Below, one piece after another: positions 8,140 to 62,904 of a stretch of DNA of 64,000 nt. Within the stretch, counting starts at the first letter, position 1. Every line of letters begins with the position of its first letter. A program made the position numbers and the translations under genes. This DNA is from Bolinopsis microptera. Lineage: Eukaryota; Ctenophora; Tentaculata; Lobata; Bolinopsidae. The notes below the pieces were generated by a model. The model made no database searches. It was not told where the DNA came from and saw only the letters and a list, made by a program, of their open reading frames with translations. The stretch is taken from assembly GCF_026151205.1 (NCBI RefSeq), contig NC_087083.1:11656944-11720943 (forward strand), given 5' to 3'.

Positions 8140-8143
8140 CAGT

Positions 8144-8520: not shown

Positions 8521-8642
8521 GTACTTGTACCTTAACCCTAACTCTTCAGTCGAATTTGAGTTTAACTGGTATGTCACGCAACCAAAACATTATTTTGTTA
8601 ATAACTCCGCAGAGGAGCAATTCTAGCCAACAAAATGTGTAT

Positions 8643-9521: not shown

Positions 9522-9632
9522 TGACTTTGTATCACGTTGTGACCCCCACGGTCGTTTTACTATGGTAGAGTTTCTACGATACAGGGGGAGCCGCGCGCAC
9601 TCGTGCACTTCGGGTTATACAACGTATGACAA
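9522..9632 (+). mobile_element. hAT-like MITE, copy 1 (~106-111 bp)
   Basis: The imperfect terminal inverted repeat is TTGTATCACGTTG at 9527-9539 against CAACGTATGACAA at 9620-9632. The core acgatacagggggagccgcg is shared with the copies at 12958 and 62478. The flanks AACTCCTT (9514-9521) and AACTCTTT (9633-9640) resemble an 8-bp target duplication with one mismatch. Confidence 0.75.
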
Positions 9633-9640
9633 AACTCTTT

Positions 9641-12042: not shown

Positions 12043-12957
12043 CGGTCAAGTCGAGCTTCATTTCATTTCATATCACGATCACCATATCATATCATTTTGG
12101 AACATGTTCATGGGAATTAAATTATTTTATTTGCACTTGTTTCTCTTTCAACAAAAGATGTGACGAAGTTAAATTTTTATGATTTTTAAATTTTTATTTT
12201 AAGAAAACTCTTGCACATTATTTATTTATTTATTTCTATTATATTGATGTATAGTCAAGACGTGAGTGTTAGGGCTCTCATTGACAAATTTATGTTTAAT
12301 CCTGTTTAATCCTGTTTAATCCCTGCAATTTATATTATTTGAGTGTTTGATGTTGATTGTTCATGTTGACGTCACTGATCAAAACCCCAACTAGTAGCGA
12401 TTATAATACTCCACTCATGAAAGGGAGGAACCGTATACCACGTGATACGGTTTAAAAGTTCCTGGATAAACAGGTGCTCAGTAGCTTTTGAATTACTAGG
12501 GTCTGAATTATTAAGGATAAAAACGTTATATTTATATTAAGATCTAGTTAATGTTGGTCTATAAGGTGTGCTGCTGAACTAATATTGAGTCACTATCATC
12601 TTTAAGGAAATTATCATTATACTTTACACACTTACACAGTAGAACGGCATTTTAAATACATTAATTTGTTAATTCCATCAAATAATGTTCAAAGATAGCC
12701 TCAGAGTAAATGCATTTGTGCATATTAATTAATTAATCGAGCTATTATTGTATTTACAGTTATCTACCCTTATTCTTAATAATGATTGGATGTAAAATCC
12801 ATATCATGGATTGTGAAGACATAATATTAATATATTATGTTCTTAACCTATCAGAATAAATATGATGCCGATTAGTTTATCAGCGAATTTAATCCCAATT
12901 TTATTTTTAGGTGGATAAAAATACTATTGGCATTGCATTATCAAGTGTGAGAATTTA
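12043..12957. other. LINE 3' flank and spacer, no gene seen
   Basis: AT-rich. It contains a short triplicated tttaatcctg at about 12295-12325. No exon recognised. Confidence 0.4.
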
Positions 12958-27714: not shown

Positions 27715-29009
27715 CTCTCTCTTTCTCTCTTTCTCTCTTTCTCTCTTTCTTTCTTTCTTTCTTTCTTTCTCTCTTTCTTTCTTTCTTTCTCTCTTTCTCT
27801 CTTTCTCTCTTTCTCTCTTTCTCTCTTTCTCTCTTTCTCTCTTTCTCTCTTTCTCTCTTTCTCTCTTTCTCTCTTTCTCTCTTTCTCTCTTTCTCTCTTT
27901 CTCTCTTTCTCTCTTTCTCTCTTTCTCTCTTTCTCTCTTTCTCTCTTTCTCTCTTTCTCTCTTTCTCTCTTTCTCTCTTTCTCTCTTTCTCTCTTTCTCT
28001 CTTTCTCTCTTTCTCTCTTTCTCTCTTTCTCTCTTTCTCTCTTTCTCTCTTTCTCTCTTTCTCTCTTTCTCTCTTTCTCTCTTTCTCTCTTTCTCTCTTT
28101 CTCTCTTTCTCTCTTTCTCTCTTTCTCTCTTTCTCTCTTTCTCTCTTTCTCTCTTTCTCTCTTTCTCTCTTTCTCTCTTTCTCTCTTTCTCTCTTTCTCT
28201 CTTTCTCTCTTTCTCTCTTTCTCTCTTTCTCTCTTTCTCTCTTTCTCTCTTTCTCTCTTTCTCTCTTTCTCTCTTTCTCTCTTTCTCTCTTTCTCTCTTT
28301 CTCTCTTTCTCTCTTTCTCTCTTTCTCTCTTTCTCTCTTTCTCTCTTTCTCTCTTTCTCTCTTTCTCTCTTTCTCTCTTTCTCTCTTTCTCTCTTTCTCT
28401 CTTTCTCTCTTTCTCTCTTTCTCTCTTTCTCTCTTTCTCTCTTTCTCTCTTTCTCTCTTTCTCTCTTTCTCTCTTTCTCTCTTTCTCTCTTTCTCTCTTT
28501 CTCTCTTTCTCTCTTTCTCTCTTTCTCTCTTTCTCTCTTTCTCTCTTTCTCTCTTTCTCTCTTTCTCTCTTTCTCTCTTTCTCTCTTTCTCTCTTTCTCT
28601 CTTTCTCTCTTTCTCTCTTTCTCTCTTTCTCTCTTTCTCTCTTTCTCTCTTTCTCTCTTTCTCTCTTTCTCTCTTTCTCTCTTTCTCTCTTTCTCTCTTT
28701 CTCTCTTTCTCTCTTTCTCTCTTTCTCTCTTTCTCTCTTTCTCTCTTTCTCTCTTTCTCTCTTTCTCTCTTTCTCTCTTTCTCTCTTTCTCTCTTTCTCT
28801 CTTTCTCTCTTTCTCTCTTTCTCTCTTTCTCTCTTTCTCTCTTTCTCTCTTTCTCTCTTTCTCTCTTTCTCTCTTTCTCTCTTTCTCTCTTTCTCTCTTT
28901 CTCTCTTTCTCTCTTTCTCTCTTTCTCTCTTTCTCTCTTTCTCTCTTTCTCTCTTTCTCTCTTTCTCTCTTTCTCTCTTTCTCTCTTTCTCTCTTTCTCT
29001 CTTTCTCTC
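27715..29009 (+). repeat. 1.3-kb array of the 8-bp unit CTCTCTTT
   Basis: After a short irregular lead-in (27715-27793) the tract is perfect CTCTCTTT to 29009, more than 150 copies with no visible variant. It is a strand-asymmetric polypyrimidine tract. The long ORFs through it, SLSLFLSF on + and KEREKERK-type on -, are artefacts of the period. Confidence 0.98.
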
Positions 29010-29269: not shown

Positions 29270-30668
29270 CTGATGTTAGGGAGGCATGTACTACTGATGT
29301 TAGGGAGGCATGTATTACTGATGTTAGGGAGGCATGTATTACTGATGTTAGGGAGGCATGTACTACTGATGTTAGGGAGGCATGTACTACTGATGTTAGG
29401 GAGGCATGTACTACTGATGTTAGGGAGGCATGTACTACTGATGTTAGGGAGGCATGTACTACTGATGTTAGGGAGGCATGTTCTACTGATGTTAGGGAGG
29501 CATGTACTACTGATGTTAGGGAGGCATGTACTACTGATGTTAGGGAGGCATGTACTACTGATGTTAGGGAGGCATGTACTACTGATGTTAGGGAGGCATG
29601 TACTACTGATGTTAGGGAGGCATGCACTACTGATGTTAGGGAGGCATGCACTACTGATGTTAGGGAGGCATGTACTACTGATGTTAGGGAGGCATGTACT
29701 ACTGATGTTAGGGAGGCATGTACTACTGATGTTAGGGAGGCATGTACTACTGATGTTAGGGAGGCATGTACTACTGATGTTAGGGAGGCATGTACTACTG
29801 ATGTTAGGGAGGCATGTACTACTGATGTTAGGGAGGCATGTACTACTGATGTTAGGGAGGCATGTACTACTGATGTTAGGGAGGCATGTACTACTGATGT
29901 TAGGGAGGCATGTACTACTGATGTTAGGGAGGCATGTACTACTGATGTTAGGGAGGCATGTACTACTGATGTTAGGGAGGCATGTACTACTGATGTTAGG
30001 GAGGCATGTACTACTGATGTTAGGGAGGCATGTACTACTGATGTTAGGGAGGCATGTACTACTGATGTTAGGGAGGCATGTACTACTGATGTTAGGGAGG
30101 CATGTACTACTGATGTTAGGGAGGCATGTACTACTGATGTTAGGGAGGCATGTACTACTGATGTTAGGGAGGCATGTACTACTGATGTTAGGGAGGCATG
30201 TACTACTGATGTTAGGGAGGCATGTACTACTGATGTTAGGGAGGCATGTACTACTGATGTTAGGGAGGCATGTACTACTGATGTTAGGGAGGCATGTACT
30301 ACTGATGTTAGGGAGGCATGTACTACTGATGTTAGGGAGGCATGTACTACTGATGTTAGGGAGGCATGTACTACTGATGTTAGGGAGGCATGTACTACTG
30401 ATGTTAGGGAGGCATGTACTACTGATGTTAGGGAGGCATGTACTACTGATGTTAGGGAGGCATGTACTACTGATGTTAGGGAGGCATGTACTACTGATGT
30501 TAGGGAGGCATGTACTACTGATGTTAGGGAGGCATGTACTACTGATGTTAGGGAGGCATGTACTACTGATGTTAGGGAGGCATGTACTACTGATGTTAGG
30601 GAGGCATGTACTACTGATGTTAGGGAGGCATGTACTACTGATGTTAGGGAGGCATGTACTACTGATGT
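29270..30668 (+). repeat. 1.4-kb array of a 24-bp unit, ~58 copies
   Basis: The unit is tactactgatgttagggagg followed by catg. Variants are confined mainly to the first 15 copies (tattac, ttctac, gcactac); the rest are identical. Because 24 is a multiple of 3 and the unit lacks stops in several frames, ORFs of 470-510 codons appear on both strands. Confidence 0.97.
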
Positions 30669-31404: not shown

Positions 31405-32299
31405 GTCCCTGACACACTGTGTGATACTCACACTGTGTGAGTATGACACTGTGTGAGTATGACACTGTGTGATACTCACACTGTGTGAGCATCACACTGT
31501 GTGAGTATGACACTGTGTGAGTATGACACTGTGTGAGTATGACACTGTGTGATACTCACACTGTGTGAGCATCACACTGTGTGAGTATGACACTGTGTGA
31601 GTATGACACTGTGTGATACTCACACTGTGTGAGGATCACACTGTGTGAGTATGACACTGTGTGAGTATGACACTGTGTGAGTATGACACTGTGTGAGTAT
31701 GACACTGTGTGAGTATGACACTGTGTGAGCATCACACTGTGTGAGCATCACACTGAGTGAGTATCACACTGTGTGAGTATGACACTGTGTGAGCATCACA
31801 CTGTGTGAGTATGACACTGTGTGAGTATCACACTGTGTGAGTATGACACTGTGTGAGTATGACACTGTGTGAGCATCACACTGTGTGAGTATGACACTGT
31901 GTGAGCATCACACTGTGTGAGTATGACACTGTGAGTATGACACAGTGTGAGTATGACACTGTGTGAGTATGACACTGTGTGAGTATGACACTGTGTGAGT
32001 ATCACACTGTGTGAGTATGACACTGTGTGAGTATGACACTGTGTGAGTATGACACTGTGTGAGTATGACACTGTGTGAGTATGACACTGTGTGAGTATGA
32101 CACTGTGTGAGTATGACACTGTGTGGGTATGACACTGTGTGAGTATGACACTGTGTGAGTATGACACTGTGTGAGTATCACACTGTGTGAGTATGACACT
32201 GTGTGAGTATGACACTGTGTGAGTATGACACTGTGTGAGTATGACACTGTGTGAGTATGACACTGTGTGAGTATGACACTGTGTGAGTATCACACTGTG
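31405..32299 (+). repeat. 0.9-kb array of the 16-bp unit acactgtgtgagtatg
   Basis: About 55 copies with gtatga/gtatca/gcatca variants. A higher-order pattern (a gatactcacactgtgtg inversion every few units) is visible in the first 230 bp. Shadow ORFs on the minus strand (HTVSYSHS) are artefacts. Confidence 0.97.
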
Positions 32300-33463: not shown

Positions 33464-35223
33464 ATGGGGAATAATAACGGCAATGCTCTCAGTTGCCGCC
33501 CCGACCGAGTATGGATCATCTTCATTATCTCTTCAGTGGCCCCGTTTGTTGGCGGTCTCGTCGCTATCATGTCTTGGAGAATGACGGGTGAGTTGGGAGT
33601 TACAGAGGGTTATTATTCGTGGGCGTTGTCTTTTATTTTTGTCTCTCGGGAAAAGGTAAACACATGTCATTGTCTTGAGAAGTGTCGGGATTTCGCAAGT
33701 TTGAAAATTGGATGATTTTTTGAATCTGTGATCTTCGATGAAACATTGGCACATGAATATTGAATAATCAACAAAGAAAAATCGCTTGTCATCAGTTGTT
33801 TCGAGAAGAGGATATATCTTCGGTGTTAAAAAATGCTATCATCGTAAATAAGCGTTTCCTGACAACTTCTGTTCATTACAACAGTTTTATGGTTTTGTGA
33901 ACGTATAATATTGTGTATGATCAAAGGGAGTTTAAAGTCAAGCACGATAGTTAAGAATCAATAATCATTGATTTGCTAACTCCACCTGGACTCGCTTATG
34001 GAATATAAAGCGGTCCGAAGTATTTAGTTTAGCCCCCCTCCCCCACCCCCTGTATTTGCCATAATACAATCTTAACTCTCACAGTACATCTGATACGGTA
34101 TTGTAAGATGCGAAAAAGGAGACGAGATCAAGACAGCGAAGAAATATACTTCAGCTGCATAAGGTTTGTTATAAAGCTGCATTATTTATACTTTACTCCA
34201 AATTTACTGAATTATCATTCAAAAATATATATATATATATCTTTGTAGATATTTATACATATTGTCTACTTTACATTGTTCAGGTTTATTCGGCGAGTGT
34301 ACAACATTCAACGAAGAGTAGTCCAATTTGCTGAGGACATTAGTTATCCTAAAACTAAAAAAGGAAGGGCCATGACCTGGGTTCAGCTTCTCATGAACCT
34401 CATAGCTATAGGTAACTCCACAACTTGACAATTCTTCTTTTATAGCTAGGGTTCAACAAACAGCAAGGAAATTATTTCAACCTGACGCAACCTAGTAGAT
34501 AATGTATGAAGTAGATTATTCCCTGACTAATCCCCTCTTTACCACAAGGTTCATTTGCCGCTCAGACGCCTGCAGATATTGAGAGATGTGTGAAACTCAC
34601 AGAGATAACTATCATTGTTGATCTTATCTGTAATATATTTTTCTTATGGAGATTTGTTGTTATGGTGAGTTTATTTTATCACTTTTATCAGCCCTAATAT
34701 GGGTGTGAGTACCAAAACGTAGTAATATCATATGGATTCTTCGGCACTGCATTGCATGGATTCGGGTTAATATCACGGATAATGGATACCTAGGCAAGCT
34801 AATATGAAATTACCCAGCAGTAAAACAAAATACAGCAGCTTGGATAAATGAAACCTTTTTGACCTAGGGCACATATGTTTTGAAATTATCGATGACTACC
34901 TTTTCAGTATATAGTATCCAAAGACAAGCTATGTTTTTGGGTAGAAATTGGCTCTTTGATAGATTTTTGTACGATTCCTCCTGCTCTTGTAACCTTTGGG
35001 GTAGGGAAAACTTGGCTTGGTGAGTACAATATAAACTTTGTTTCTAACCAACTAAAGATTGCTCAAAAAATGGAATAAAATAATTATCAATTCAAATGTT
35101 AAATTTTTTGACCGGAAAAAAATTTGATCTTCAAACTGGACTCTCAGGGCTGCGGTTTGTAAGATGTCTAAAACTCTTATCGTTTGGTGACGACATCGCT
35201 GCAGTAAAGCTTATATCTTCACA
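33464..35223 (+). other. slo: Slo exons 1-6: S0 and voltage sensor (S1-S4)
   Basis: Exon 1 carries S0 ([20 protein letters not shown]), the extra N-terminal helix that marks Slo1-type channels. Exon 2 is a basic loop ([14 protein letters not shown]). S1 spans exons 3-4 and S2 is in exon 4 ([15 protein letters not shown]). S3 is in exon 5 ([20 protein letters not shown], aligning with KLWFWLEVNSVVDFFTVP of BK). S4 starts exon 6: [12 protein letters not shown] has basic residues spaced like LRFLRALRLIQF of BK, with the last Arg replaced by Lys. Voltage sensing is therefore plausible. Confidence 0.9.
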
Positions 35224-38200
35224 GTAAGAGTGCATGCCTATCCAGGAATGTTTACAATTTAATACATTTTCAAACTAATAGACAAAGAAGTGTTGAAATT
35301 GATAATACAACACACCTTAAATTTTAGGTTCATTCATTTGTGCAAGTGCAATAGTTCAACATACCTCTTATAAAACTATGTGAACAATATATGTTGTCGA
35401 ATGGTCACGTTTATGATGATTTTAAAATGTACTTTGTTGATGACTGGATTATTTTCAGTAAAATGCTGACACTGTCTCGAACTCTGTGTCAGTTCGTCAG
35501 TTTCTGGCTCACAGCTGCGGGATTATATTTCTTGGTGGCGAGAATGTCGGACTCGGGCAACAAAATCCACTTCTTTGAATGCATGTACTTTTTATTAGTA
35601 AGTAATAACCTTGTTTGAAACTTCCCTTACCTGTGTTAAATATGTATCTTAACTTTGCACAGTATGCAACGTTAACACAGCCCAATGTTAATATTCAAAT
35701 ATTGAAGACTTATGACAAAAGACTAGACAAATTGAAAATATTTTGAAAATGTAATTTTAAAGTGTTGACATATAAGAAATGGAATCCATGAGTACACCAC
35801 GTCATTAATCTCAGGTCACAATTTCAACAATTGGGTATGGTGACTTGAAGCCAGAAACAACTACGACCCGTTTAGTTGTAATAGTATTAATAGCCGTAGG
35901 GCTGGTAAGTGAGCTGAGGCTAGAAGAGCATATTTCCCGAGCCCTCCAACATTCTACCTGCTGCCAGTGTGTTGGGGGAGGAGGGGTCTGCACGTGCGCG
36001 CGCGGCTCACCTTGGTAACCAACACCATCTAGGTTACCAAGTTCGGGTCCGCGTGCAGGTGCAAGGCATTGAGCACTGTTCGTTGACTTGTCTATTTCTA
36101 TCTCAGGTAACAATAACCACTATTGGCTACGGAGACATCCATCCAATGACTCTGAGTTGCCAAATTATTGTCATTTTCATCATTGCAATTGGAGTGGTAA
36201 GTGTGTCGGGTGCTTATTTTCAAGCGCGTAATCAGTGAACGTTGTGAGAGAAAGAAATAGACAAGTGAATGGGCTGTATTACACTCTTGCTGCTTACTTT
36301 TTGCTGATAAGTTCTGGGTATTGGTGAGGAGGTGAATATGTTTTGATACGAGATATTGATTATGGGTTAATGTTGGTTGATCATTGTCATGTGTCAAAAA
36401 AAGGTGGTTCACCTCCTTGTCAATATTCACAACTATTCTTTTTACGATTATATTTTATGCTGTCTTGATTCTGTTGCAGTATTATCCTTATTGCGCATAC
36501 TCCTGCTACACAAATTCCGCTGCTGTGTGAAACAAAGCAAAATATTCTTATTATCCATAAACCAAGTTAGTACTCGTGACTAGCAGTTATATTTTAGGCT
36601 GTATTCGCTTCATTCGGTCCGGCTGTGATAGAGATGTTTAAAAAGAGTCCCCCATATGTGCTTGACTACGATGACAGCAAAAGCAGGTGATGTGTAATAC
36701 TTTATCAACACGATTTGAGATTTGAGGTGTCAATCTTAAAATACTTTATATTTATTTATATTTCTCAGCGTACAAAACAGCTGCTGCACACACTATTATA
36801 AGATTAAGACGTGTAAGGTACACTAGAACATTTCCCAAGTTTTGATGCACAAGAAATATTCATGATTTTGTAAATTTACTTACAAGTGCCACGTGTCAAA
36901 GCAATAACTAACACACAATTATCACACATTTCCCCGGCCTTTCGACGCCTAAAATAACGCCGATCCGGTATAATACCACGTCATGTTGAACAAAATCAGC
37001 CCGTGTCACCACGTAATAACTGGCAACATCCTTCAGTCACGTGGTGGTGTGCGGGTACATAAACACGAGTACAGTTAGCAACTTCATGAGAGACTTCCTA
37101 CATCCTGAGAACGAGGACCACGAAACTACAGCGGTCTTTCTCAATACGTACGTGATACAGATAGTGGACATTTTTAATTTTAGTTATATCTCATTATGCC
37201 TCAACTTCGTCACTTTTAACTTGGCGCAAATTTTGAGGATTAGCGACGGAAGGTGTTGATAATTTTATCCAAACTTTGTGACATCTACTGAAGTTTTCAG
37301 CAAACCAGATTGACCACAATTGAAGTTTATTTACTTCATTTTCAGAATACCGCCGCCGGAAGACTTACAAAATCTGATGCACCGAAACTTTTATAGATGC
37401 CAATATTACCAGGTACAAATTACCACTACCACAGACTAGCTACACACTAGCTACACTACCACAAACTAGCTACTGACTTAAGGCGGGTAGTATTCCCGAG
37501 ATCCATTGACAGCTTTCTTTTCTCCACAGCTTTCTGTCCTCCATCAGTCTAGCTATCTCATCTACTGACTTCAGCCCAGTATCTGCTTTTAGGTTATCTA
37601 GTAGTGTTAAGTGAGGTCGCCCCCTGTTAGTATGCCCAGACTAGCTAGCTAGACTTAGTATTGGAGAGTTTGGAAATCCAATTAAAACTGCCTGCTGGGT
37701 ACGAGTTCAAAACTATAACTTTAAACTAGTGTTCTAGACAGTGTTACACGCCGTTTTAACGTTGGTAACACACTAATTTCACCCAGGGAAGCCCGTTGCG
37801 AGCAGGTGATCTGGCCCGAGTGAAGCTGTCCACAGCTAAAGCTTGTCTCGTTATCGCTAATAAACACTCGGCTGAGCCCGACGCAGAGGATGCGGCTAAT
37901 ATTCTCAGGTTTATAGTGTATTTTATAGTGTATTTTATAGTGTATTATAGTACATGTACTATATATAGTGTTTATATAAATTACAATTAATATGAAATTA
38001 ACCGCAACACTGTTTTGTTTCAGAGTGATATCTATAAAGAATTACAAGTCAGATGTTAGAGTAATAATACAAATCCTAAATTACCATAACGAAGAACATC
38101 TATTTAATGTACCTGACTGGAACCACCAGCTCTATGGTGACGAAGTTATCTGCATCAATGAGGTTAATTTTATGATTGTCTTCAAACAATATCTTTAATT

Positions 38201-41200
38201 TCTTTGCTTTTTTTTCAAACAATATCTTTAATTTCTTTGCCTGGCTGGCAATTTGCTTATTGATCTGTCTTTTGTATTATACTAAATGTAGAACAAAAGA
38301 CATGTCCGGATTTCTCTGCGTGCAGCATTTGATAGTGCAAGTGTAACCAGAACTTTGGCTACGACATCATTGAAAGTAAACAGAGATCTGTAGCTGAAAG
38401 AGATCTGTACAGCTGATTGTGATCTGATTTACAGAAGAGAGTGATGTGTAAATACTGTGTTTATACTAAAACAAGTGTGATTATTTCAGTTAAAGCTGGG
38501 GCTACTTGGTAAAAGCTGCCTGTGTCCTGGGTTCAGTACTATGATCGCCAATCTCATCATGATGAGTTCGTTCCACCCCAGTAACTACGTGAGTCATTGT
38601 GCAGCACAGTTATAATGGGTCCATTATCCCAATTATCCACAGTCTGCTGTTAGATTGTGAAATACTCATTGTTTCACCGCATGAACAGCTTATTAAACAA
38701 TGACTCATCTTAAGACTAATCTTAAGACTAATCTTTAGACTTGTCTTAGAACTCACTTTAAGACTAATTTCACGTTACCTCGATCATTATCACAGACATT
38801 AGTAAAGAGATAATTAATGTTTGCTGTTTAGCGGAAAACAAATTCATGACCATCACAAAGCCACCGCAATTTTATCAATGGGATATGAATTTTTTATATA
38901 TTTTGCGAAAATTGATATTTACATTTCAGTGAAATCTAAAAATCGCTATTTGTGTTTACATACAATCCTCCCTGAATATCGAAACTGATTAAGAACCTGA
39001 CACTAAACTATCTGCAGAGTAAAGATGTGAGATCTAATTGGGAGTATGAGTACGGGTACGGTGCTTCTAACGAGCTCTATACCGGTTCTCTAAGTAGTGA
39101 CTTCCTTGATATGACTTTCCCTGAAGTTGCAGAGTGAGTTGTCCTGAAGGGACCCCAACATTTTGATTAGGTTTTATGAATTTTGTTCAGGTTATAATAA
39201 TGTTTGCTCTCAAGAAAACCTTCAGCTTCAATAATTTTCCTACAGATTTACTTTATGTGTCATAATCTGTCGTATGATGTCACGTGATAACTTTCACAGG
39301 ATTTGTTTGATAAAACTTCACATACTGCTGATTGGAGTTGAAACCAATTCTTCTTCAACTGGGTAAGATATGAATTGAGTAACTACTAACTATTGATTAA
39401 CTCCGTTACTGGAGCCTTTTAAAATAGGAGTTCTTCACAGCTGATTTATGTTAGTTATCCGTTATGGTGCCGCGAAACGGGCCATATGAAAAAGCACTAT
39501 TTAATTAAACATTACTTAGCTCGGTTGTATCATGAAAAACTATGTAAAACCTAGTGTTTCACGAAAAATCTCTAAATTAAAATTAATGGAAGTTATCTGA
39601 TAAATTCTTCTTGAAAAGACCTCAGACCTACTAAATTTGAATTAAAATCGTTGATAAATGAATTGATCAGGAACTGATGGAAGATATTTCTCAAAATTCC
39701 ATAACTTATTCATTACTAATTGATTATTAATCTTCCCTCAGGATTTTGTTCAACCCGAGTCCTCATATATTCAGATTCAGACAAGGCACTCAAGGGATCT
39801 TCATTGCTCAAAATCCAACCGTAATTAAGAGGTAGATATTTAAAAAAAACTAATTCCTGAGTTAATATTCCTTCAGGATTTTGTTCAACCCGAGTCCTCA
39901 TGTATTCAGATTCAAACAAGGCACTCAAGGAATCTTCATTGCTCAAAATCCAACCGTAGTTAAAAGGTATGTATAGAATGCACGGTTCGATGCATGGACC
40001 CACACCAGGCTTTAGTGAAGATGCGCATCTCTACAACCCTGCCGCTTTACTGATGACCCGTTTTGACACAAAGATTTCGCATCCGTTCATTTGTTACTTC
40101 ACATGAACAAAACAAGTGAAGCATTAAGCATGTCGCACTGAGTTTGCAAGAGTTTTTAATATATATTTTTATAAGTTTGTGTGCACTGTGCATATCTTAT
40201 ATTTGAGATATGCTAACAGTTATAATTATCAATTTAACTTGCTTGTAGTGCATATCTTATATTTGAGATATGCTAACAGTTATAATTATCAATTTAACTT
40301 GCTTGTAGAACCGTTTATCGTACTGGCATGGCGAAGAGATTGAGTTGGAGGTGAAAACAGCACAGCCGTGATTGTTAACATTTCTTACCAAATAAAAACA
40401 CGAGCACATGATATAATTGTTTCTTGCAAACAATTATTTTAGCAATTGAAATTGTGGAAAAATTTAAATATTTAGAAGAAAAAGTGTTTTTTCTATTAAA
40501 GTTATTGATTGTATAAGAATCTGCATGGTCCACAGCAGCGTTTAATAAAAAAGCAACAGCAACATGATAAACTCCTTTTTTGCACGCTTTTATTGAATTT
40601 GTTTAATACTTTATATTATAGAACAAAGCAGAAGAACAACAATCCTTTTCAGTGCGGCGCTGTTTTGTTTCAAGTGTCACGAATACGCTATACAGTCCGA
40701 GATTGTTAAATGTACCTGCGATAAAAGTGATTGTAAGTCTATTAAACTTACTCAATAGAGCATGTGCTCATACTTTGTAATTTAATTATTCATTTCAATA
40801 CCACTAATCAATACCACTAATCAATACCACTAATCAATACCACTAATCAATACCACTAATTAATACCACTAATTAATACCACTAATCAATACCACTTCAA
40901 TACAATGTTTATCGTATGTAATTTATTTTGAAATCATTAAAAATCCTCTAATATCTTTTGAAAGAAATCTTTGGATATTCTTTAAGGCATCGTAAGCCAT
41001 AAAACATTAGCATAATCATCAACTTCGTTATCTTAACTAATTGTAAAATCATTCAAAACATGCGTAAGTGATACTAAATGATTCTCAACGATCAGTGTCT
41101 TCGATAAACCGAACCGAAATTTTTAGAGCAATGCCTGGCGTAGGTATGAGTAAGTGAAAAGTGTGGATAGAAATGTTACGTATTCTTACGTAATGTTACG

Positions 41201-44200
41201 TATTTCAGTCATGACATACTAGTTCCGCATGGAAAATATATGGGTTTTGTTAAGTTTTGAATGTTCTCGTAGCTTGTATTTTTAGAAATGTAACCGGGCT
41301 TGTGTTCCTGTAGTTATTAATAGTGAATTGTGATGTATTTGTGATGGATCCCTTACTGATAAAACGCTGTGTATGTAACAAGTGGCTTAGTACCAGAACC
41401 AATAACTTACGTGATTATTTATTGAACTTATAGTGTGGGATAACTAATAAGCGTGATCATCTGAAATTTATAAATAGTCTCTGGCAACAAGTTTAACAAA
41501 TACTTTGCAACGCAGCGTTTTAGTATGTTGTAAGACTAAGAGGAACCCACTTAGTAACGTTGTGAAGTTCATGTTTGTCTACTTGTGGGAGTATCTTGTA
41601 GCATACTGCATAGTAATATTACTTATAGTATTATTAATATTACTTATAGTAATATTACTTATAGTATTAGTAATATTACTTATAGTTATATTACTTATAG
41701 AAATAAAACTTGAAAGAAATAAGTACAACATATTTTGATACGAACTACCGTCCAGAAAGTTTTTAAATACTGAAATTGTGATTGGAAAGTTTTGTGTCCC
41801 AAGCGTAACAGCGTGCACTATATTGATCTCAGAGATTGAATATGCAAGGCAGCCTATAAAAAATATGTATTTTTTAGTTGTTAGAAGATGAACTGATATG
41901 TTTTGTACTATTTTCAGCGGGTTACACCAACAACAGGTCTAACTCTAACTCAACTTCTAAACCAAAAACACAGAAGAAAAAGAAACAGTAAGTTCGAGAC
42001 CTGCTGACTGGTGCTCTCATTCTTAATTTTTACTTTATCAAACATTCCTTCTGAAAAAACACTTTGAAACATAATATCTGCAAATCTGCATACTTCATAT
42101 CATGTTCATACAATTCTCACTCTTAATAACTGAACTATTCAGGAGTGAATATGTACCTTACTGGAAACGGCTCTCACAAGAGGAGCGAGCCAAGATGGAC
42201 GAGAGACTCACTCTGGATGGTTCTGGAACCTTCCACTGGCGGGAATCGTGCCTTCTGGAAGAAGTTACCATGACCAAAGAAGATGTTGCTACACTCACAG
42301 GTACTGAGGCGTTTTTATATTCCTGTTGTGATATTCGGGATCTGGTAATGTTCACTTGTAGTAGTTATGTCACATGATTGATTTGATTGATTGATTGAGG
42401 AGCACTACCCGAAGGCATTACTCGGCACTAACGCCTTAAAATCTATAATTACAATCAAATATAAATATATGCACAAAATGTATAAAGTATTAATAATGTA
42501 TAAAATATGATTATGCTATTAGCAAATTTAAATAGTACTATTAAGAATTTTAAATAACTCTTATCTCTTGACATAAATTTAGAACAGCGACACAGGGTCT
42601 GAAGAATGCGCGGTGATATTTTTATCTTTTAAAAGTTGTAAATGACAGTGAAATTGCGCGGTGTCGATAGTATTGTAAAAAAATGCTCGAAGATAGTCAT
42701 ATTTTGTTATGAGGTTAAAGTTTTGTTGCTCGTTATTATGATCAACGTATGTTGTACCAAATTATTTAAATTTCTAAAAGTACGAAATTTGAGTTGTCCC
42801 AGTCCTTGTCATCCGGTTTATGTGCTTGTGCAGTAAGCACATGCTTGTTGACTGTAGACTTGAATGAATTTAGGAATTTGTCTTGTAGGCAAGTGGTGAC
42901 ATATTTTATGTCCTTGTTAATAATGTTGACTGTTTGGTTATATAACTTAGGCCCAATGTAAGAAATGCTCTTGTCTGAATTACATAAACGGTTAAATGGT
43001 ACTGCAAAGAACTTAGGTTCTCTTCTAGGTGCGTTTAAGTTTGAAACAGTGAACATTCTTATAATATTTGGTGGAGCAGTGTTAGAATAAACTTTGTGCA
43101 TTAAGCATAATATACATTTAGCTATCGCGTTCGGTAAAGCTAATACTTCTAGTTTATTGAAAATTTCCTTTGTGTGTGAAGGTGTGCTATTCAGATCTTT
43201 GTCATAAAAATAGCGGTGGTATTGGTTATCTGCAGCGCGAATGCCCTTTTTCTGGGCCGAGAAGACTCTTTTAACGGAGTTTAGCGATCTTGTTCCCCAA
43301 ACTGTGCAGCAGTAGTACAAGTGAGACTGAACAAAGCTGTTGTATATCAACTTGAGTGCTTTGTTAGGTACTGAGCCTTTGAGTTTGTAGAGAATACCCG
43401 CATTTCTAGATACTTTAGTGGCTAAATGTCTAATGTGGTGGGCCCAATTTAGCTTAGTATCAATGATCACGCCAAGAAACTTTTCGTGATAACTTTGCTT
43501 TAGTCGCTCACCTCCCATGTAGATTTCTATATCCTTAGTTTTCTTATATTTTGTAAAGATCATATATTTAGTTTTGCTAGCATTTAATTTAAGCCCGTTA
43601 TTAGTAGCCCAATCAATTATCAAAGTCAGAATCTCATTCACCAATGCATTAAGTTGTTCAAATGTATCTGTAGCCCGTTATTAGTAGCCCAATCAATTAT
43701 CAAAGTCAGAATCTCATTCACCAATGCATTAAGTTGTTCAAATATATTACCATTGATGGTGCCAACTACGGATCATGCAAGATTGCTCCCAGATATCATG
43801 GCTGGCGATTATTCTATAGTCTCATATTTGATATGCATCGTCAAGCTGTTCATTTTAATATAATATATTGAATATTATGTTTTTCGACGAAGGCTTTCTA
43901 AATCTTGGTGTTTGGGAATAAAAACCCTTTATTTCAGATCACATTATCGTGTGTGTGTTTGGAGATAACAACCCTTATTATAGATCACATTATCGTGTGA
44001 GTGTTTGGAGATAACAACCCTTATTTCAGATCACATTATCGTGGAATCAAACAGGAATTAAAGGAATAACACCCCCTTATTTCAGACCACATTATCGTGT
44101 GTGTGTTTGGAGATAACAACGCTCCTACAGTGGGTCTAAGAAATCTACTCCTGCCACTAAGGAATAGCAACCTTCCTTCAGTAGAAGTTAAGAAGGTCCT

Positions 44201-47200
44201 GTTGCTAGGAAAGAAGGAGTATATAGAAAAAGAGTGGAAGGATATTGATGAGTTCCAAGACGTTTATTTCATGGAGGTTAGATATTGTCAATAAATTTTA
44301 CATTGCATGTTCTATAAACTATTGCGATTGCTGTAACGTTTTTGCAACTATTCGCACTTACAGCCTGCAAATTTAACGAGCCCTAGCTCAAGGGTTAAGT
44401 TCACTTTCTAGATATAAGAAATAAAACGTCATATTGACGTAAGCGGAATTATAACATAATCGATCTGTTTCATCACTTTTTGCTACTTAGTGTCCTGGAC
44501 AGTTGACAGGTACAGCTGTATCAGTTACAATGTTACATATTGTTTCCCCAGTATTTTATTTTGTAGCAGTATACTTGTTAACTGCCTATCAAGGGAAGGA
44601 CGCCTATTTGTTATTTATAGTTAAAACTCCCAATTAATGAAACTAACTCTGTTCAGGGCTCACCTATCAGAAGAGAAGATGTGATATCGGCGGGAGTTCA
44701 AAACTGTCTGATGTGTCTCATCCTGTCCTCGGCTCTACAAAGCAAGGCTACCGACCCCAACCTGGTGGACAAGGAGACTATTCTCTCTTTCTTACAGGTG
44801 ATACCTTATCTAAATTCTTTCTCTCTCTCTAGGGTTGACCTTCTATTGGCGCAATTCTCTAATTTGTGGGCAGTTAAATATACTGTGGATATGTCAGCGA
44901 TATAAGGGTTAAGAAGTTTGTGTGAAGTAGAGTTCCTTTTAGCGGTTCAATTAAAGTGTAATGTTGTTTAATTTCCTTTAATCCATACAACTATCTAACT
45001 GCTTGCAGCAAATCAAGACAACTTACTCATTAAGAAAGCAAAACTACTAGACATTCTGAGTGTTTGTTTATGTAATTTCGTCTTGGACGGACAGTGACAG
45101 TCAGATCAAGCAAAAGTACAATTTCCAACTATAAATCTATCTTAAATCAGAATAAATATTTGCAGTATTTGAAGGGTGATTACTGATTACTGATTAGGTG
45201 TGTATCATCATAGGCTATGCATAATATCCGTTACTGATAACGGTCCGCTGAGACTGACTGCAACGTCCCGAGTATTTGGTTCCTCCCTCCTAAACCCCTT
45301 TACGTAAACTCTGTCCTGAACGTTTCACGCCGTTACCCACACCGCCGGCAACACAGTCAGTTCCTGTCGCGGTGAGGAGTGTGAATTAGCTGTTGCAGTG
45401 TGTGGGGTCTACAATCTACATGTTGTATCAGCTAGTTGTCTACATACCTGTATCTAGTGCTAGGAGAGCACGTGGGCGCTCTAATAACCCATTATCACCA
45501 CTAGGTACTGCTTCTATTTCTAACACTGCTCTCACGTCTACACCATACACGTGTAATTCTACAATGGTTTTGTAGTGGTGTGCTTTACAACACCACGTGA
45601 CTTAACATTTCTCAAGGCATGAGATACACGTGTAATTCTACAATGGTTTTGTAGTGGTGTGCTGCAGGGTGGGCCGCGTGTAAACGGTACAGATATTGAG
45701 ACTTTAGAGTTTAAGAGTGCAATTACATGCTTTATATAAATGTACAAAATAATTTACTGAGAATATATAATAATAAGGAGTGTATAAGGAAATGACGAGG
45801 TTGAGAGTTTTATATTTAGTAGGTATATAATGTTAAGTGTGCACTGTGCACGACCTGGTTTGTTTCAGATGGTTAGCATTATTTGAAATACATTCTCACT
45901 AATATTTTTGATTAATTCCTCCTATGATCAGATTAAAGGATGCCGGGGCACCGAGAGTACGGACACACCCAACACAACCAAATATCGGCTGTCGGAGAAA
46001 CCCATCAGAAACCGAGCCCAGATCCCCATAATATCAGAAATAGGTTTGCCATATTTAATTTTGTCACATTTAATTTTCCTTCTGACAACTATTCATGGCT
46101 CCATTACAATAACCACTCGAACACATTATTCAGTTTTACGCGATTTTTCTGTTCAAAATTGACGTAATATTTTTGGTTCTACTTCTACTGTAATCGAACA
46201 ACTATGGTACAAATAACAAAAGCGATATCGTTACAAGATCAGGTTCAGAAGATAACCCTCACATAATCACTTACCTAGTTAACGATTCGAACGTGCAATT
46301 CATGGAAAAATCTAAAGACTCGGGTGTTGGAGCCCTGTACATGGCTTTACCTTTCACACGGGGCCAAGCCTTTATCGTTTCAGTACTGGATGCCATACTG
46401 TCTTTGGTAAAAAGTGTTTGTTGCATGTTTGCCTGGTTTACTTTGAAAGCATTTGTGGGACCGGTGTGGAGGTTGTCAACAGTTGGCTGTTGGCACACTA
46501 TGAAAAAGAGCGCGAAATATTTTAATATGCAAAATAATCACTGTAGTAGTGATGGTCACATAATCTCGCGTTATGGCAGCAAATTATAATTATAATTACG
46601 TAGATTAAAATAATGTAACATATCCGGTAGAGGAGTACCCTGACTCCTGTTAAATATCCTGGATAGGATTTAGGACACATCGTAAGTTTGGCATACAATG
46701 GCAAATAAATGTGTGAGAAAAGCTTGCGGAAAATAAAAAGACAACTCCACTCTCCAGTGGACTGATGTAGAGATAGTGTCTCCACACTGTGTACATCATA
46801 ATGAAACTGGGTTTTCTGTTTGCTGTGTGTATGTACTAGCATGATCTTGTTTTTCAGTGTCTGATTCTAATGTTCAATTCATGATGGCACACAGCCAGGA
46901 ATCCTTCTCCTCGTCTTCCCCACTTCAAATGTCACTGCCCTTTTCGCGAGGCCAAGCTTTCATTGTGTCTATCCTTGATTCCCTCTTATCTCTCGTTATC
47001 AACGGGGACCGTGATGTAAGCACCACATTGTTAGCCACATTGTTAGCCACATTGCCTATACGTTTCCTATTTCTTGCTAGAATCTTGCAAAACTGACGCG
47101 ATTATACGCAGCTAGTGAACTGGAACGTTTATAAACACTGCTGTTTATAAACACTGATGTTTATAAACACTGATGTTTCTAAACACTGCTGTTTCTAAAC

Positions 47201-50200
47201 ACTGCTGTTTATAAACACTGCTGTTTATAAACACTGCTGTTTCTAAACACTGCTGTTTCTAAACACTGCTGTTTCTAAACACTGCTGTTTCTAAACACTG
47301 ATATTTATAAATACTGCTGTTTCTAAACACTGCTGTTTATAAACACTGATATTTATAAACACTGCTGTTTCTAAACACTGCTGTTTCTAAACACTGCTGT
47401 TTCTAAACACTGCTGGTTATAAACACTGATGTTTCTAAACACTGCTGTTTATAAACACTGCTGTTTATAAACACTGCTGTTTATAAACACTGCTGTTTAT
47501 AAACACTGCTGTTTATAAACGCTGCTGTTTATAAACAATGCTGTTTATAAACACTACTGTTTCTAAACACTGCTGTTTCTAAACACTACTGTTTATAAAC
47601 ACTGATATTTATAAATACTGCTGTTTCTAAACACTGCTGTTTATAAACACTGATATTTATAAATACTGCTGTTTCTAAACACTGCTGTTTATAAACACTG
47701 ATATTTATAAATACTGCTGTTTCTAAACACTGCTGTTTCTAAACACTGCTGTTTCTAAACACTGCTGTTTATAAACACTGATGTTTCTAAACACTGCTGT
47801 TTATAAACACTGCTGTTTCTAAACACTGCTGTTTATAAACACTGCTGTTTCTAAACACTGCTGTTTCTAAACACTGCTGTTTCTAAACACTGCTGTTTAT
47901 AAACACTGCTGTTTATAAACGCTGCTGTTTATAAACAATGCTGTTTATAAACACTACTGTTTCTAAACACTGATATTTATAAATACTGCTGTTTCTAAAC
48001 ACTGCTGTTTCTAAACACTGCTGTTTCTAAACACTGCTGTTTATAAACACTGATGTTTCTAAACACTGCTGTTTATAAACACTGCTGTTTCTAAACACTG
48101 AGGTTTCTAAACACTACTATTTATAAACACTGCTGTTTCTAAACACTACTGTTTATAAACACTGATATTTATAAATACTGCTGTTTCTAAACACTGCTGT
48201 TTATAAACACTGATATTTATAAATACTGCTGTTTCTAAACACTGCTGTTTCTAAACACTGCTGTTTCTAAACACTGCTGTTTATAAACACTGATGTTTCT
48301 AAACACTGCTGTTTATAAACACTGCTGTTTCTAAACACTGAGGTTTCTAAACACTACTATTTATAAACACTGCTGTTTATAAACACTGCTGTTTATAAAC
48401 ACTGCTGTTTATAAACACTGCTGTTTCTAAACACTGCTGTTTATAAACACTGATGTTTCTAAACACTGCTGTTTATAAACACTGCTGTTTCTAAACACTG
48501 CTGTTTATAAACACTGCTGTTTCTAAACACTGCTGTTTCTAAACACTGCTGTTTCTAAACACTGCTGTTTATAAACACTGCTGTTTATAAACACTGCTGT
48601 TTATAAACGCTGCTGTTTATAAACAATGCTGTTTATAAACACTACTGTTTCTAAACACTGAGGTTTCTAAACACTACTATTTATAAACACTGCTGTTTAT
48701 AAACACTGCTGTTTATAAACACTGCTGTTTCTAAACACTGCTGTTTATAAACACTGCTGTTTATAAACACTGCTGTTTATAAACACGGCTGTTTATAAAC
48801 ACTGCTGTTTATAAACACTGCTGTTTATAAACACTGCTGTTTATAAACACTGCTGTTTATAAACACTGCTGTTTATAAACACTGCTGTTTCGAAACACTG
48901 CTGTTTATAAACACTGCTGTTTCGAAACACTGCTGTTTATAAACACTGCTGTTTATAAACACTGCTGTTTATAAACACTGCTGTTTATAAACACTGCTGT
49001 TTATAAACACTGCTGTTTCCTCGTATTTATTAACTAACCGGCGGTATATGATACTATTTACGTCATTGCTTCTGGAAAATTCGGAGGAAACTATAGTGAC
49101 TAGCGGATTCTTTAAGCTGTTGTGATATCGCTATAAATTACACTGCAAATCAGCTTATTTTACTCTTATTATTTACTTTCTGATTTTTCTTGGGAATTAA
49201 ATACGAACTTTATTATGTATTATGAGGTTGTGTTGTTTCTGGAACCTTCTTTATATCATCAATATTTACATCCATCAAACTACCGTGCATAAAGTTCTCA
49301 GATATTTATCTGAATTTTAAAACGCAAAACTTGTTGATGGGTTTGTGCGTGTGCAGATTTTTCTGAAAATTACATCCTCCTTACATTTCACATCCTCAGA
49401 CATTCTACAACGAAAAGTTGATGAGTATTATAAGAACTTTGATCACTGGAATCGGAAACAGTCATAAAAACGAAACAGCAGACAACTACCTCCCCGGTTT
49501 GTATTATCACTATTTAACTGTTTACTGCTGTCTTTTATGACCCGTGGAAATTCAGCTACTGATGAGTATTATTTAAAGAACTAGGGAACTATGTACATTA
49601 TAATTAGTAATAATTAGCAATAAATAAACTATGTACATTAGAATTAGTAATAATTAGCAATAAACAAACCACCAATCCCCATCAGAGAACAGCGAGGAGG
49701 ATGTGATGTACTATCAGCCCTGGTTGAGAACTAGGATGTCCTGTAGAATAGCTCAGATCTCCCTACGAGACGAGAGATTCTCTAGATTCAGGGTAAAACA
49801 TTTTCATACAATGGAGAATCGAGCAATATACAGGCTATATTATATGTATTAGCCTCGTTATCATGTTATCTGACACATTTAAATACAACTTTGTTCAATT
49901 AATGAATAATTATAATAATTATAATAATAATTAGTGAATAATCCGCAGGTTTATGGTGAACTGTTTGTATATTTGCTTCACAACTATTCGATGCTAGCCC
50001 TCGGATTGTACCGCAGTTACCAGTGGGCTAATAAAGGAATCAAAGGTATTTCTTAGAATATGTATCAAATTTCATCACAGAATTTTGGGATTCTACGTAT
50101 TAGACAGAAGTATTTGAAACCTTTTCATTTTCCAGTAATATTTACTTTATTGCCAAATTTTGACTGATAATGACAACATCTCACCCAGGGAAAAGTACCA

Positions 50201-53689: not shown

Positions 53690-55700
53690 TTGATCACTAG
53701 GCAAAAATTCCATTAAATCTGTCAAATATCATATTTGAAAATGGGACAGAGAATGAAACAATATCATTTTTCAATTTTTTTCGGGATTTTGAATTCCAGT
53801 ACCTCAATTTGGTTTCATACCATCATCGATTAACTGAATAATTGGTCTATGGGCAAAAATTCCATCCGATCTGTCAAATTTGTGTTCAGAAATTTTCATA
53901 TTTGAAAATGGGACAGAGATTAGAAAATATGAATTTTCGTTTTGTTAAGATTTTTGCTGTGAGCTTCCTACGACCGAAATCAAACTTCCAGCACCTCAAT
54001 AATGTCATATGGGGTCTATAGTTGACCGACTAATTGGTTGCAGGTGAGAAATTCTGTCAAAACTGTAAAATTTCGGTACTGGAAATTTCATCTTCAAAAA
54101 CTGAAAATGGGACAGAGAATGAAACAATATGATTTTTCAATTTTCTTCGGGATTTTGACTTCCAGTACTTCAATTTGGTTTCATACTATCATCGATTAAC
54201 TGAATAATTGGTCTATGGGCAAAAAGTTCATCCAATCTGTCAAATTTGTGTTCAGAAATTTTCATATTTGAAAATGGAACAGAGATTTTAAAATATGAAT
54301 TTTCGTTTTGTTAAGATTTCTGCTGTGAGCTTCCTGCGATCGAAATCAAACTTCCAGCACCTCAATCGTGTCATATGGGGTCTATAGTTGACCGACTAAT
54401 TGGTTGCAGGTGAGAAACTCAGTAAAAACTGTAAAATGTCGGTCCTGGAAATTTCATCTTCAAAAACTGAAAATGGGACAGAGAATGAAACAATAGGATT
54501 TTTCAATTTTCTTCGGGATTTTGACTTCCAGTACCTCAATTTGGTTTCATACCATTAACTGACTAATTGGTCTATGGGCAAAAAGTTCATCCAATCTGTC
54601 AAATTTGTGTTGAGAAATTTTCATATTTGAAAATGGGACAGAGATTTTAAAATACGAATTTTCGTTTTGTTAAAATTTCTGCTGTGAGCTTCCTGCGATC
54701 GAAATCAAACTTCCAGCACCTCAATCGTGTCATATGGGGTCTATAGTTAACCGACTAATTGGTTGCAGGTGAAAAACTCAGTAAAAACTGTAAAATGTCG
54801 GTCCTGGAAATTTCATCTTCAAAAACTGAAAATAGGACAGAGAATGAAACAATATGATTTTTCAATTTTCTTCGGGATTTTGACTTCCAGTACCTCAATT
54901 TGGTTTCATACTATCATCGATTAACTGACTAATTGGTCTATGGGCAAAAAGTTCATCCAATCTGTCAAATTTGTGTTCAGAAATTTTCATATTTGAAAAT
55001 GGGACAGAGATTTTAAAATATGAATTTTCGTTTTGTTAAGATTTCTGCTGTGAGCTTCCTGCGATCGAAATCAAACTTCCAGCACCTCAATCGTGTCATA
55101 TGGGGTCTATAGTTGACCGACTAATTGGTTGCAGGTGAGAGACTCAGTAAAAACTGTAAAATGTCGGTCCTGGAAATTTCATCTTCAAAAACTGAAAATG
55201 AAACAATAGGATTTTTCAATTTTCTTCGGGATTTTGACTTCCAGTACCTCAATTTGGTTTCATACCATCATCGATTAACTGACTAATTGGTCTATGGGCA
55301 AAAAATTCATCCAATCTGTCAAATTTGTGTTGAGAAATTTTCATATTTGAAAATGGGACAGAGATTTGAAAATATGAATTTGTGATAATAATTTTATAAA
55401 AATACAAAAGTTGTGATTTAATATTTTCTGGTGTTGGGCCATCCTTTGGGTTGTGGAGCTCAGTTCTGCTTCGTATAGGTCTATATAATGACTAATTGGT
55501 CTATGGGCAAAAAGTTCATCCAATCTGTCAAATTTGTGTTCTGAAATTTTCATATTTGAAAATGGGACAGAGATTTGAAAATATGAATTTGTGATAATAA
55601 TTTTATAAAATACAAAAGTTGTGATTTAATATTTTCTGGTGTTGGGCCATCCCTTGGGTTGTGGAGCTCAGTTCTGCTTCGTATAGGTCTATATTGTGCA
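53690..55700 (+). repeat. ~366-bp tandem satellite, dimeric, about five units
   Basis: The string attggtctatgggcaaaaa recurs at about 53841, 54207, 54566, 54932 and 55286 (spacing 366, 359, 366, 354). Each unit has two diverged halves of ~183 bp, both with aaaatgggacagaga and gactaattgg. The right end carries a different ~208-bp direct duplication (gttgggccatcc...gtataggtctata at ~55430 and ~55640). Confidence 0.9.
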
Positions 55701-60511: not shown

Positions 60512-61033
60512 TTAAAATAGAGTGACTGCAAGGCAAGAGACGAGCTGGATGAGAAGGAAAGAGAATGTTATTTTACTTTCCGAGGATACATAGTTCTCCC
60601 TTTCTCCGTCGTCCTGGGATATCATGTTGCAGTTATCAGTGCTGCAGACTTCCAATTTGCAGGAAATAACATTGTTATCTCCTACATCGTCTTCTAAACC
60701 TTCACACATGGCATCCTCCGTGTTTTCCGCAGTGGAGCCGTCCGGCAGACACACTCTTCCGACCATGTCAACTGTCATTGATTCACCTTCTACAATTAAG
60801 CTTACAGTTGCACAGACCATTTCGATTTGACTTTCATCACAAGGCATCATGCTGGATGAGTCACAGCCTGAAGGTAATTCTCCGGTCTTGAACAATCCAC
60901 CATTCGATTCCATAATTTCCTTCGTGGCATCGGAGTCGTACTTGAAGGCTGCCTCGCTACACTGATAACAACTGATAGCCTTGGTACAAATCGCAATACA
61001 ACTTGCAGCTATTATAGCTAATATTATCTTCAT
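60512..61033 (-). CDS. Ly6/uPAR-like GPI-anchored surface protein, 173 aa, intronless
   Basis: It starts at ATG 61031-61033. Residues 1-19 form a signal peptide (MKIILAIIAASCIAICTKA). The mature protein begins ISCYQCSEAA, the typical CxxC start of a three-finger Ly6/uPAR domain, and ends it with CSTDNCN, the hallmark C-terminal CN. The C-terminus is a hydrophobic stretch (FSFLLIQLVSCLAVTLF) after small polar residues, as expected for GPI attachment. TTTATT at 60486-60491 is AATAAA on the minus strand, about 20 nt past the stop; TATA-like bases lie near 61092-61102. No ligand or function can be read from the sequence. Confidence 0.82.
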   Translation of the reverse strand: MKIILAIIAASCIAICTKAISCYQCSEAAFKYDSDATKEIMESNGGLFKTGELPSGCDSSSMMPCDESQIEMVCATVSLIVEGESMTVDMVGRVCLPDGSTAENTEDAMCEGLEDDVGDNNVISCKLEVCSTDNCNMISQDDGERENYVSSESKITFSFLLIQLVSCLAVTLF

Positions 61034-61485
61034 CTTCTTAACTTCTGCTACTGAGACATGTTAATCAAAGCACGGTACACTTCAGAGTTCAGATGTATAT
61101 AATAATAGTAACAATCAATCAAAGATATCAATAAAAAATATTTCATTAAAGGATACTAATAAAAGACAGACATATTAAATATAATATATTTTAAACTAAT
61201 TACAACACTACAAATCTATTACATTTATTGAGGATGATACAGAAGAAATGTATTTAATGTAGTTATTGAGGAGTCCTAACTCTCCTCACATCCTCAAATG
61301 GAGTTTTCTTTCTACCATATATATATAATTATATATAACTGATAATCGTCTAGGGAAAAATATGAAATAACTCATCATGGATCACGTTATTTAATTTTAC
61401 GGAACATGTGGGATTGCTCAATGCAACCTGATATAGTGTGTATATATAATGTGAAAGAAATTGTATTCAAAATTATGGAAAGATC
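61034..61485. other. Ly6 upstream region, no other gene seen
   Basis: AT-rich sequence; likely the promoter side of the minus-strand Ly6-like gene. Confidence 0.4.
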
Positions 61486-62477: not shown

Positions 62478-62904
62478 TTCATGTATCACGTCGTGACCCC
62501 CAATGTCGTTTCACTGTAAAGTTCACTGTAGAGTTCACTGTAGAGTTCACTGTAGAGTTCACTGTAGAGTTCACTGTAGAGTTCACTGTAGAGTTCACTG
62601 TAGAGTTCACTGTAGAGTTCACTGTAGAGTTCACTGTAGAGTTCACTGTAGAGTTCACTGTAGAGTTCACTGTAGAGTTCACTGTAGAGTTCACTGTAGA
62701 GTTCACTGTAGAGTTCACTGTAGAGTTCACTGTAGAGTTCACTGTAGAGTTCACTGTATAGTTCACTGTAGAGTTCACTGTAGAGTTCACTGTAGAGTTC
62801 ACTGTAGAGTTCACTGTAGAGTTCACTGTAGAGTTCACTGTAGAGTTTTTACGATACAGGGGGAGCCGCGCACTCGTACGCGGCGGTCGTACAACGTATA
62901 ACAA
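62478..62904 (+). mobile_element. hAT-like MITE, copy 3, expanded by an internal minisatellite
   Basis: Flanked by the perfect 8-bp duplication ATCAGACA (62470-62477 and 62905-62912). The sister unit at ~61631 reads ATCAGACAGCTGTGG without the insert, giving an empty site. The ends match the copies at 9527 and 12958. Confidence 0.92.
62510..62846 (+). repeat. 12-bp minisatellite (gttcactgtaga), ~28 copies, inside the MITE
   Basis: Nearly perfect repeats between the MITE's left end and its acgatacagggggagccgcg core. The shorter copy at 9527 has a single gttttactatggtagagtttc at the same place, which looks like the seed. ORFs through it (STVN / VHCR repeats) are artefacts. Confidence 0.95.

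Follow-up and report, generated by a model that had tools for sequence, protein, structure and literature searches.

Alternative exons that encode a selectivity filter are already known in the cation channel NALCN, and tandem Slo exons are already known in the gating ring (excerpts of PMC3557258 and PMC9741552, respectively). NALCN carries the tandem, mutually exclusive exons 15a/15b and 31a/31b, which span pore helices and filter, as do the two exons described below (exons A and B), and exon 15 also includes the start of S6 (Senatore and Spafford 2013, PMC3557258, as excerpted). In these pairs, one exon is ancestral and the other derived, and independent gains and losses are described in the same excerpts of PMC3557258. 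However, NALCN is a four-domain cation leak channel whose alternative exons change the selectivity residue (E or K; excerpts of PMC3557258). In contrast, the ctenophore gene studied here encodes a tetrameric K channel whose two exons leave the filter intact but alter the outer mouth and upper S6, and a predicted stem covers one of the two acceptors. Pore splicing was reportedly also described by Kim et al. in 1997 for Shaker of the lobster Panulirus. That case belongs to the Shaker family, whereas exons A and B belong to the Slo family.

In Slo/KCNMA1 of human, fly and worm, tandem duplicated exons are used as alternatives and are lineage-specific (excerpts of PMC9741552). These events were mapped on the gating-ring structure 3naf and none was found in the filter, although events outside this structure could have gone unmapped (PMC9741552, as excerpted); the best match of 3naf to the protein analysed here begins at RCK1. 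Two further exon pairs of the ctenophore gene, e17a/e17b and C1/C2, lie in the same protein region as the human, fly and worm tandem exons in these excerpts (PMC9741552). According to the original prediction, no BK gene with duplicated filter exons was known. In agreement with this, none was found in the excerpts of PMC9741552 or announced in the titles and abstract openings surveyed among open-access papers on Slo pores, a survey that says little about ctenophores. Finally, in docking-site/selector and loop-out systems, inner and outer introns pair and one of two exons is looped out, as is predicted here (excerpts of PMC6071210 and PMC10790352).

We analysed a window of 64,000 nucleotides from the ctenophore Bolinopsis microptera (contig NC_087083.1, termed C12 in our searches), which contains a Slo1-family gene (Table 1). 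All introns of the 28-exon model were GT-AG, and both the version with A, 17a and C1 (930 aa) and the version with B, 17b and C2 (940 aa) were free of stops. With the first 639 aa as query, the best PDB matches were Aplysia Slo1 (451 bits) and human Slo1 (450 bits), compared with 113 bits for Slo2.2. Slo3 was present in this comparison as the gating ring only and, like for like, gating-ring chains gave 285 bits for human Slo1 versus 201 bits for Slo3. The last 295 aa (the RCK2 part) scored 195, 123 and 37 bits against Slo1, Slo3 and Slo2.2, respectively. Pfam domains above cut-off were Slo-like_RCK, BK_channel_a, Ion_trans_2 and Ion_trans, and exon e1 aligned to the hydrophobic stretch at the N-terminus of Slo1 from Aplysia and human, the S0 segment. 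The Slo/BK-type channel named in the original prediction is thus of the Slo1 family by descent, but the acidic stretch that makes up the calcium bowl is missing from it (Aplysia QFLDQDDDDDPD aligned to RCK2 of the window gene, in which neither C1 nor C2 has an acidic bowl). Within the double inner ring, formed by E321 and E324 in BK, exon e9 has Ala for E321 and keeps E324. Among D362, D367 and E535, the RCK1 calcium site residues of BK, the alignment had D362 and E535 kept and Glu instead of Asp at 367. 'BK' is right as a family name; as a functional identity it is a putative label, read from sequence.

Table 1 Positions of the Slo1-family gene, its tandem exon pairs and the inverted repeat around exon B (window numbering)
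Feature	Positions	Strand	Description
Slo1-family gene	33464..50045	+	exons e1-e25, 28 counting three pairs; S0 to RCK2; model stops short of 3' end
Exon e7	35459..35597	+	S5, turret, pore helix; upstream exon common to A and B
Exon A	35815..35904	+	phase 0-0, AG/GTAAGT; pore helix end, filter, outer vestibule, upper S6 (human Slo1 283-312)
A-B intron	35905..36106	+	55% GC, strongly folded
Inverted repeat, left arm	36075..36104	+	covers B polypyrimidine tract, ends directly before AG
Exon B	36107..36196	+	phase 0-0, AG/GTAAGT; same segment as exon A (human Slo1 283-312)
Inverted repeat, right arm	36248..36277	+	within intron downstream of B
Exon e9	36598..36686	+	lower S6 and linker to RCK1; downstream exon common to A and B
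Exon e17a	39742..39831	+	late RCK1; in-frame identity to e17b 82/87 nt
Exon e17b	39877..39966	+	young copy of e17a; 135-bp tandem unit, 1.8 copies, 93%
Exon C1	46279..46406	+	RCK2; 85% identical over 46 aa to P1 exon
Exon C2	46858..47015	+	RCK2; alternative to C1

Profile searches gave at least 6 matches for PF03493 and at least 10 for PF22614, and every match listed fell within three Slo-family genes on the contig of the window. These were the window gene, a paralogue near 3.39 Mb (P1) and a second paralogue near 10.39 Mb (P2). The contig carrying all three is chromosome-sized (15.2 Mb). P2 has a canonical pore (VGYGDVYPTT) and its intron positions differ from those of the window gene. P1 is the closer paralogue, with stretches of 96% identity over 26 aa, 94% over 48, 86% over 37, 80% over 61 and 72% over 94 aa, as well as weaker ones (e.g. 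41% over 83 aa); some of these local matches extend into introns.

Several other features were recorded in and near the locus. The e18-e19 intron holds an open frame on the minus strand (42766-43677) that resembles, by eye, a non-LTR reverse transcriptase, and the C2-e23 intron holds a 16-bp minisatellite of 118 copies (47127-49018). Further arrays occupy 5953-6691, 27716-29009, 29270-30668, 31414-32299, 53736-55381 (366-bp unit) and 62510-62847 of the window. At 60515-61060 on the minus strand, an open frame with a signal-like start has a Ly6/uPAR-like cysteine pattern (by eye). About 60-90 kb past the window end (contig positions 11782391-11809362) there are four ionotropic glutamate receptor matches with open frames of 765-949 aa. 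For fragments of two ionotropic glutamate receptors of this genome (397 and 406 aa), the top PDB hit was ML032222a, a protein of the ctenophore Mnemiopsis leidyi. In P1, a minisatellite derived from the end of the gene's own S5 exon, repeated ...VSFWLTAGGLYFLVSTT, lies at about 7590-10700 of the reverse complement of contig positions 3384001-3408000.

Two complete, in-phase exons with conserved filters are present between the shared S5 exon and the shared lower-S6 exon of the window gene. Their coordinates, 90-nt length, identical phase, TIGYGD motif and 16/30 residue identity were all exactly as first claimed. The splice sites, described as strong, were fully so for B and in part for A. Both donors read GTAAGT; the acceptor of B (14/17 pyrimidines) ranked joint top with that of e11 among the gene's 27 acceptors, and that of A (11/17) was average. 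The four junctions 35597-35815, 35597-36107, 35904-36598 and 36196-36598 all fell at AG/GT sites and kept the frame. A and B are neighbouring homologues that match in length and phase and have separate splice sites, the arrangement expected of mutually exclusive tandem exons.

A six-frame search of the entire genome (264.65 Mb in 232 contigs) with exon A returned 19 matches at E <=10, A included. The best match after A itself was exon B (E 4e-4), followed by a paralogue's pore exon (E 0.006) and 16 weaker matches; among the best 8 loci of these 19 matches, the 5 ranking after the paralogue read as other K-channel pores. When 40 of the 90 bases of A were changed at random, 16 identical residues were seen in 1/20,000 trials, never more, and a stop codon arose in 68% of trials. 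The rank of B in the genome and the rarity of such identity under random change demonstrate that the resemblance is not due to chance. No further pore exon of the gene was found among local matches scoring >=42 in 33000-54000. Joined to one another, A and B (both phase 0-0) form an open frame, so the coding sequence imposes no exclusivity on this pair.

Three tandem pairs were found in the gene (A/B, e17a/e17b and C1/C2), at least two of which differ in age; C1/C2 is an older RCK2 pair and e17a/e17b is young. The 45-nt intron between e17a and e17b is so short that joining both may be hindered, and an intron too short for the joining of two exons is a named mechanism of exclusivity (excerpts of PMC6071210). 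The e17a/e17b duplication is perhaps polymorphic. C1 and C2 together shift the frame and meet stops, so these exons are usable one at a time only, and this forced alternation within the same gene counts in favour of exclusive use of A and B. By eye, the stretch 43938-44085, directly upstream of e19, also contains three partial and imperfect copies of that exon's acceptor and first bases; these are either decoy acceptors or leftovers of tandem duplication.

The A-B intron had a GC content of 55%, compared with 21-43% in the gene's other 26 introns. Folding covered 23 of the 27 introns (those <=520 nt), and among these the A-B intron had the lowest z score (-4.3, and -4.15 in a separate run), followed by e14-e15 (-3.0) and B-e9 (-2.6); the e14-e15 intron folds well though it has no known alternative exon. 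Positions 35930-36075, within the A-B intron, were single copy in the genome, as was the B-e9 intron where searched. In this search, which skips very common words, the single copy ruled out a dispersed mobile element as the identity of the A-B hairpin.

Exon B is closed in the predicted loop of an inverted repeat, the arms of which pair at 27/30 positions, 3 being G-U. The ungapped pairing score of this stem was 46.5, equalled by 0/100 shuffles of the B introns (shuffle maximum 33). B was the only one of 19 tested exons so enclosed, the other 18 scoring 18-26. Tested exons had both flanking introns of about 520 nt or less and received 12 shuffles each, except B (100); the 9/28 exons outside this set were the two end exons and neighbours of introns >520 nt, with C2 scored separately. 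Among random placements of the same geometry, the score was reached by 0/600 in the window with tandem repeats excluded (maximum 40.5) and by 0/250 within P2. In P1, where palindromic minisatellites are common in introns, 14/250 placements did so, and such stems are therefore not rare everywhere in the genome. Minimum free energy folds of 241 nt (z -3.5) and of 511 nt including both exons (z -5.0) closed the same stem. The complementary intron segments of this predicted stem, which could mask or loop out B, exceed chance.

No comparable stem was found at the P1 pore exon (score 21.5), and no competing stem was found for A, whose flanks scored 18.5 (shuffle mean 21.1). The e7-A and B-e9 introns paired at 23.5 against a shuffle mean of 23.9, offering no docking site for A. 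Unlike in docking-site systems, a single stem was found at the locus, and no competing partner for A. Stems were also absent at the RCK2 pair (C1, 22.5; C2, for which the initial 95 nt of the following intron were used, 19.0), and the C1 equivalent of P1, with approximate flanks, scored 18.0. The second lower-S6 exon of P1 reached 50.5 (shuffle maximum 30.5), which was discounted because its flanks are self-palindromic minisatellites; the nearer flanks alone scored 22.0. In the excerpts of the literature used here, skipping of an exon tends to increase when its flanking introns are complementary (PMC10790352), outer introns of exclusive exon clusters tend to pair with inner introns (PMC6071210), and both masking and looping-out count as established mechanisms (PMC10790352, PMC6071210). 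Against a role for the stem, deletion or swapping of comparable inverted repeats that would loop out exon Ab of U2AF1 made no difference in reporter assays (excerpts of PMC5224494).

We consider it likely, with a probability of roughly 0.7, that A and B are mutually exclusive pore exons of one Slo1-family channel gene and that B is gated by RNA structure. One-at-a-time use is predicted from the sequences of the exons, and the role of the stem in exon choice from modelled pairing. The stem lies over the acceptor with the top pyrimidine content, and A has a plain, open acceptor, so a masked strong B would compete with an open plain A. In the default fold, the stem would hide the polypyrimidine tract of B, e7 would be joined to A and A to e9, and B would be lost in the lariat. 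If a helicase, an RNA-binding protein or the rate of transcription kept the stem open, the stronger acceptor of B would win. The folded A-B intron would hold the donor of A near the acceptor of B, and this proximity would disfavour the otherwise in-frame joining of A to B.

At codon positions one, two and three, A and B were identical in 18, 25 and 7 of 30 codons, respectively, with pN 0.33, pS 0.77 and saturated dS. Third positions are saturated and second positions are not, which indicates that the exons are old. This pattern of purifying selection supports the earlier argument that divergence under a conserved filter reflects maintenance of both exons. Between B and the P1 pore exon, pN was 0.22 and pS 0.84. 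The main alternative is that one exon, likeliest B behind its stem, is a leftover that is rarely or never spliced, leaving a single pore in practice. No more than one pore exon was seen in P1, the stem would exclude B, and the gene does hold functionless-looking tandem part-copies (upstream of 44086, three copies of the e19 start, identified by eye, two of which were also scored). However, both exons have open frames, intact filters and intact splice sites, their identity is low at third and high at second codon positions, and the B type, with the low pN relative to pS given above, is the one that P1 retains. We therefore regard a leftover exon as unlikely, though the most credible of the alternatives.

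A second P1 pore exon was not found between 11048 and 13350 of the P1 locus. P1 does have two RCK2 exons and, for the lower S6 and linker, two phase-matched exons with 22/29 identity, equivalents of e9, located at 11539-11627 and 12391-12479 of the reverse complement given above. Beside a single filter exon, these two may possibly be alternative inner-gate exons. Identity over the pore segment was 19/30 for B and P1, 16/30 for A and B and 14/30 for A and P1. Compared with human Slo1, P2 and Aplysia, respectively, A shared 15, 15 and 11 of 30 residues, B shared 11, 11 and 11, and P1 shared 11, 11 and 9. B and P1 agree against A at seven exon positions (12, 19, 20, 21, 24, 25 and 28), and at no position do P1 and the outgroups agree against A and B jointly. 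By this pattern of shared residues, A and B parted either before the window gene and P1 did or at the same time, which would make both exons long-lived. The simplest reading, suggestive but not proof, is that A/B is older than the window gene/P1 split and that exon A was then lost from P1. Against such early dating, human Slo1 has the B and P1 residue at position 24, Ile at 3 and Ala at 27 are common to A and B alone, and Aplysia is equidistant from A and B; the 30 residues available are also a weak basis for dating.

Next in plausibility, and likewise unlikely, is that the stem serves another purpose, either back-splicing of B into a circular RNA or formation of an A-to-I editing duplex, and that proteins choose the exon. 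Editing of K-channel pores does occur in other animals, which speaks for a duplex. A single-exon circle of 90 nt would be unusually small. Circular RNA is known to arise where introns are complementary (excerpts of PMC10790352). However, one arm sits on the polypyrimidine tract, and masking of the acceptor is the most direct effect of such a position. Inclusion of A and B in tandem, giving two filter segments or a dominant-negative subunit, is permitted by their shared phase and open joint frame. We consider it highly improbable, as putting another filter segment where lower S6 belongs would be expected to break the pore fold, and the acceptor of B lies within the stem, behind a strongly folded intron. 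An assembly error that set two haplotypes or genes side by side, of which the near-identical e17a/e17b could in principle be an example, is the least probable of all, since A and B differ at 40/90 bases within one gene and the searched flanks are single copy.

On the preferred reading of exclusive exons, the two pores would differ at the outer mouth. By the chain numbering of human Slo1 the filter Asp is residue 292, and the 14 differences between A and B include 294 (K/H; Y in human), 296 (E/M), 301 (R/Q), 306 (V/F) and 312 (L/V), the last three in upper S6. The residue two past the filter Asp, position 294, is Lys in A (GYGDLKP) and His in B (GYGDIHP). This position (BK Y294) corresponds to Shaker 449 and Kv1.3 H451, so that B and A present the His and Lys states of the Kv1.3 H451/Shaker T449 position. 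In BK, Tyr at this outer-mouth position confers TEA block, and Kv1.4 has Lys there. Among Kv1 channels, His and Lys at this position are found in separate genes, whereas here they are two exons of one Slo gene. The filter Asp is likewise numbered 292 in excerpts of PMC6054526, and C-type inactivation depends critically on Kv1.3 H451 and Shaker T449 (excerpts of PMC9271579). Judging by homologous positions, a pore from A, with four lysines at its outer mouth, would show little external TEA block, altered inactivation and lower conductance. A pore from B, with four histidines, would be sensitive to outside pH and zinc and would inactivate in a Kv1.3-like manner. The TIGYGD motif is the same in both exons, so K+ selectivity is expected to be unchanged. 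The proposal that two pores would alter conductance, block or gating is thereby qualified: effects on block, inactivation, conductance and gating are predicted, and a change in selectivity is not.

Beyond the original observation, the analysis added the stem around exon B, two further exon pairs and the paralogue P1. A broader reading is possible, and we offer it tentatively, at less than even odds. Slo pores of this lineage may be built of interchangeable exons (filter, outer mouth and upper S6 in the window gene, lower S6 and linker in P1, and RCK2 in both), with a stem that switches a ring of Lys or His. Kv1.4-like and Kv1.3-like mouths would then come from one gene, splicing would set inactivation, pH sensitivity and block, and the switch would be no younger than the gene pair. 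The stem itself offers a simple and testable model for how RNA structure may select an exon, and the exon pair amounts to a ready natural experiment on the outer-mouth residue that controls block and inactivation. Real isoforms would mean that a Slo channel can change its pore by splicing, at a site without events in the excerpted human, fly and worm Slo survey (PMC9741552).
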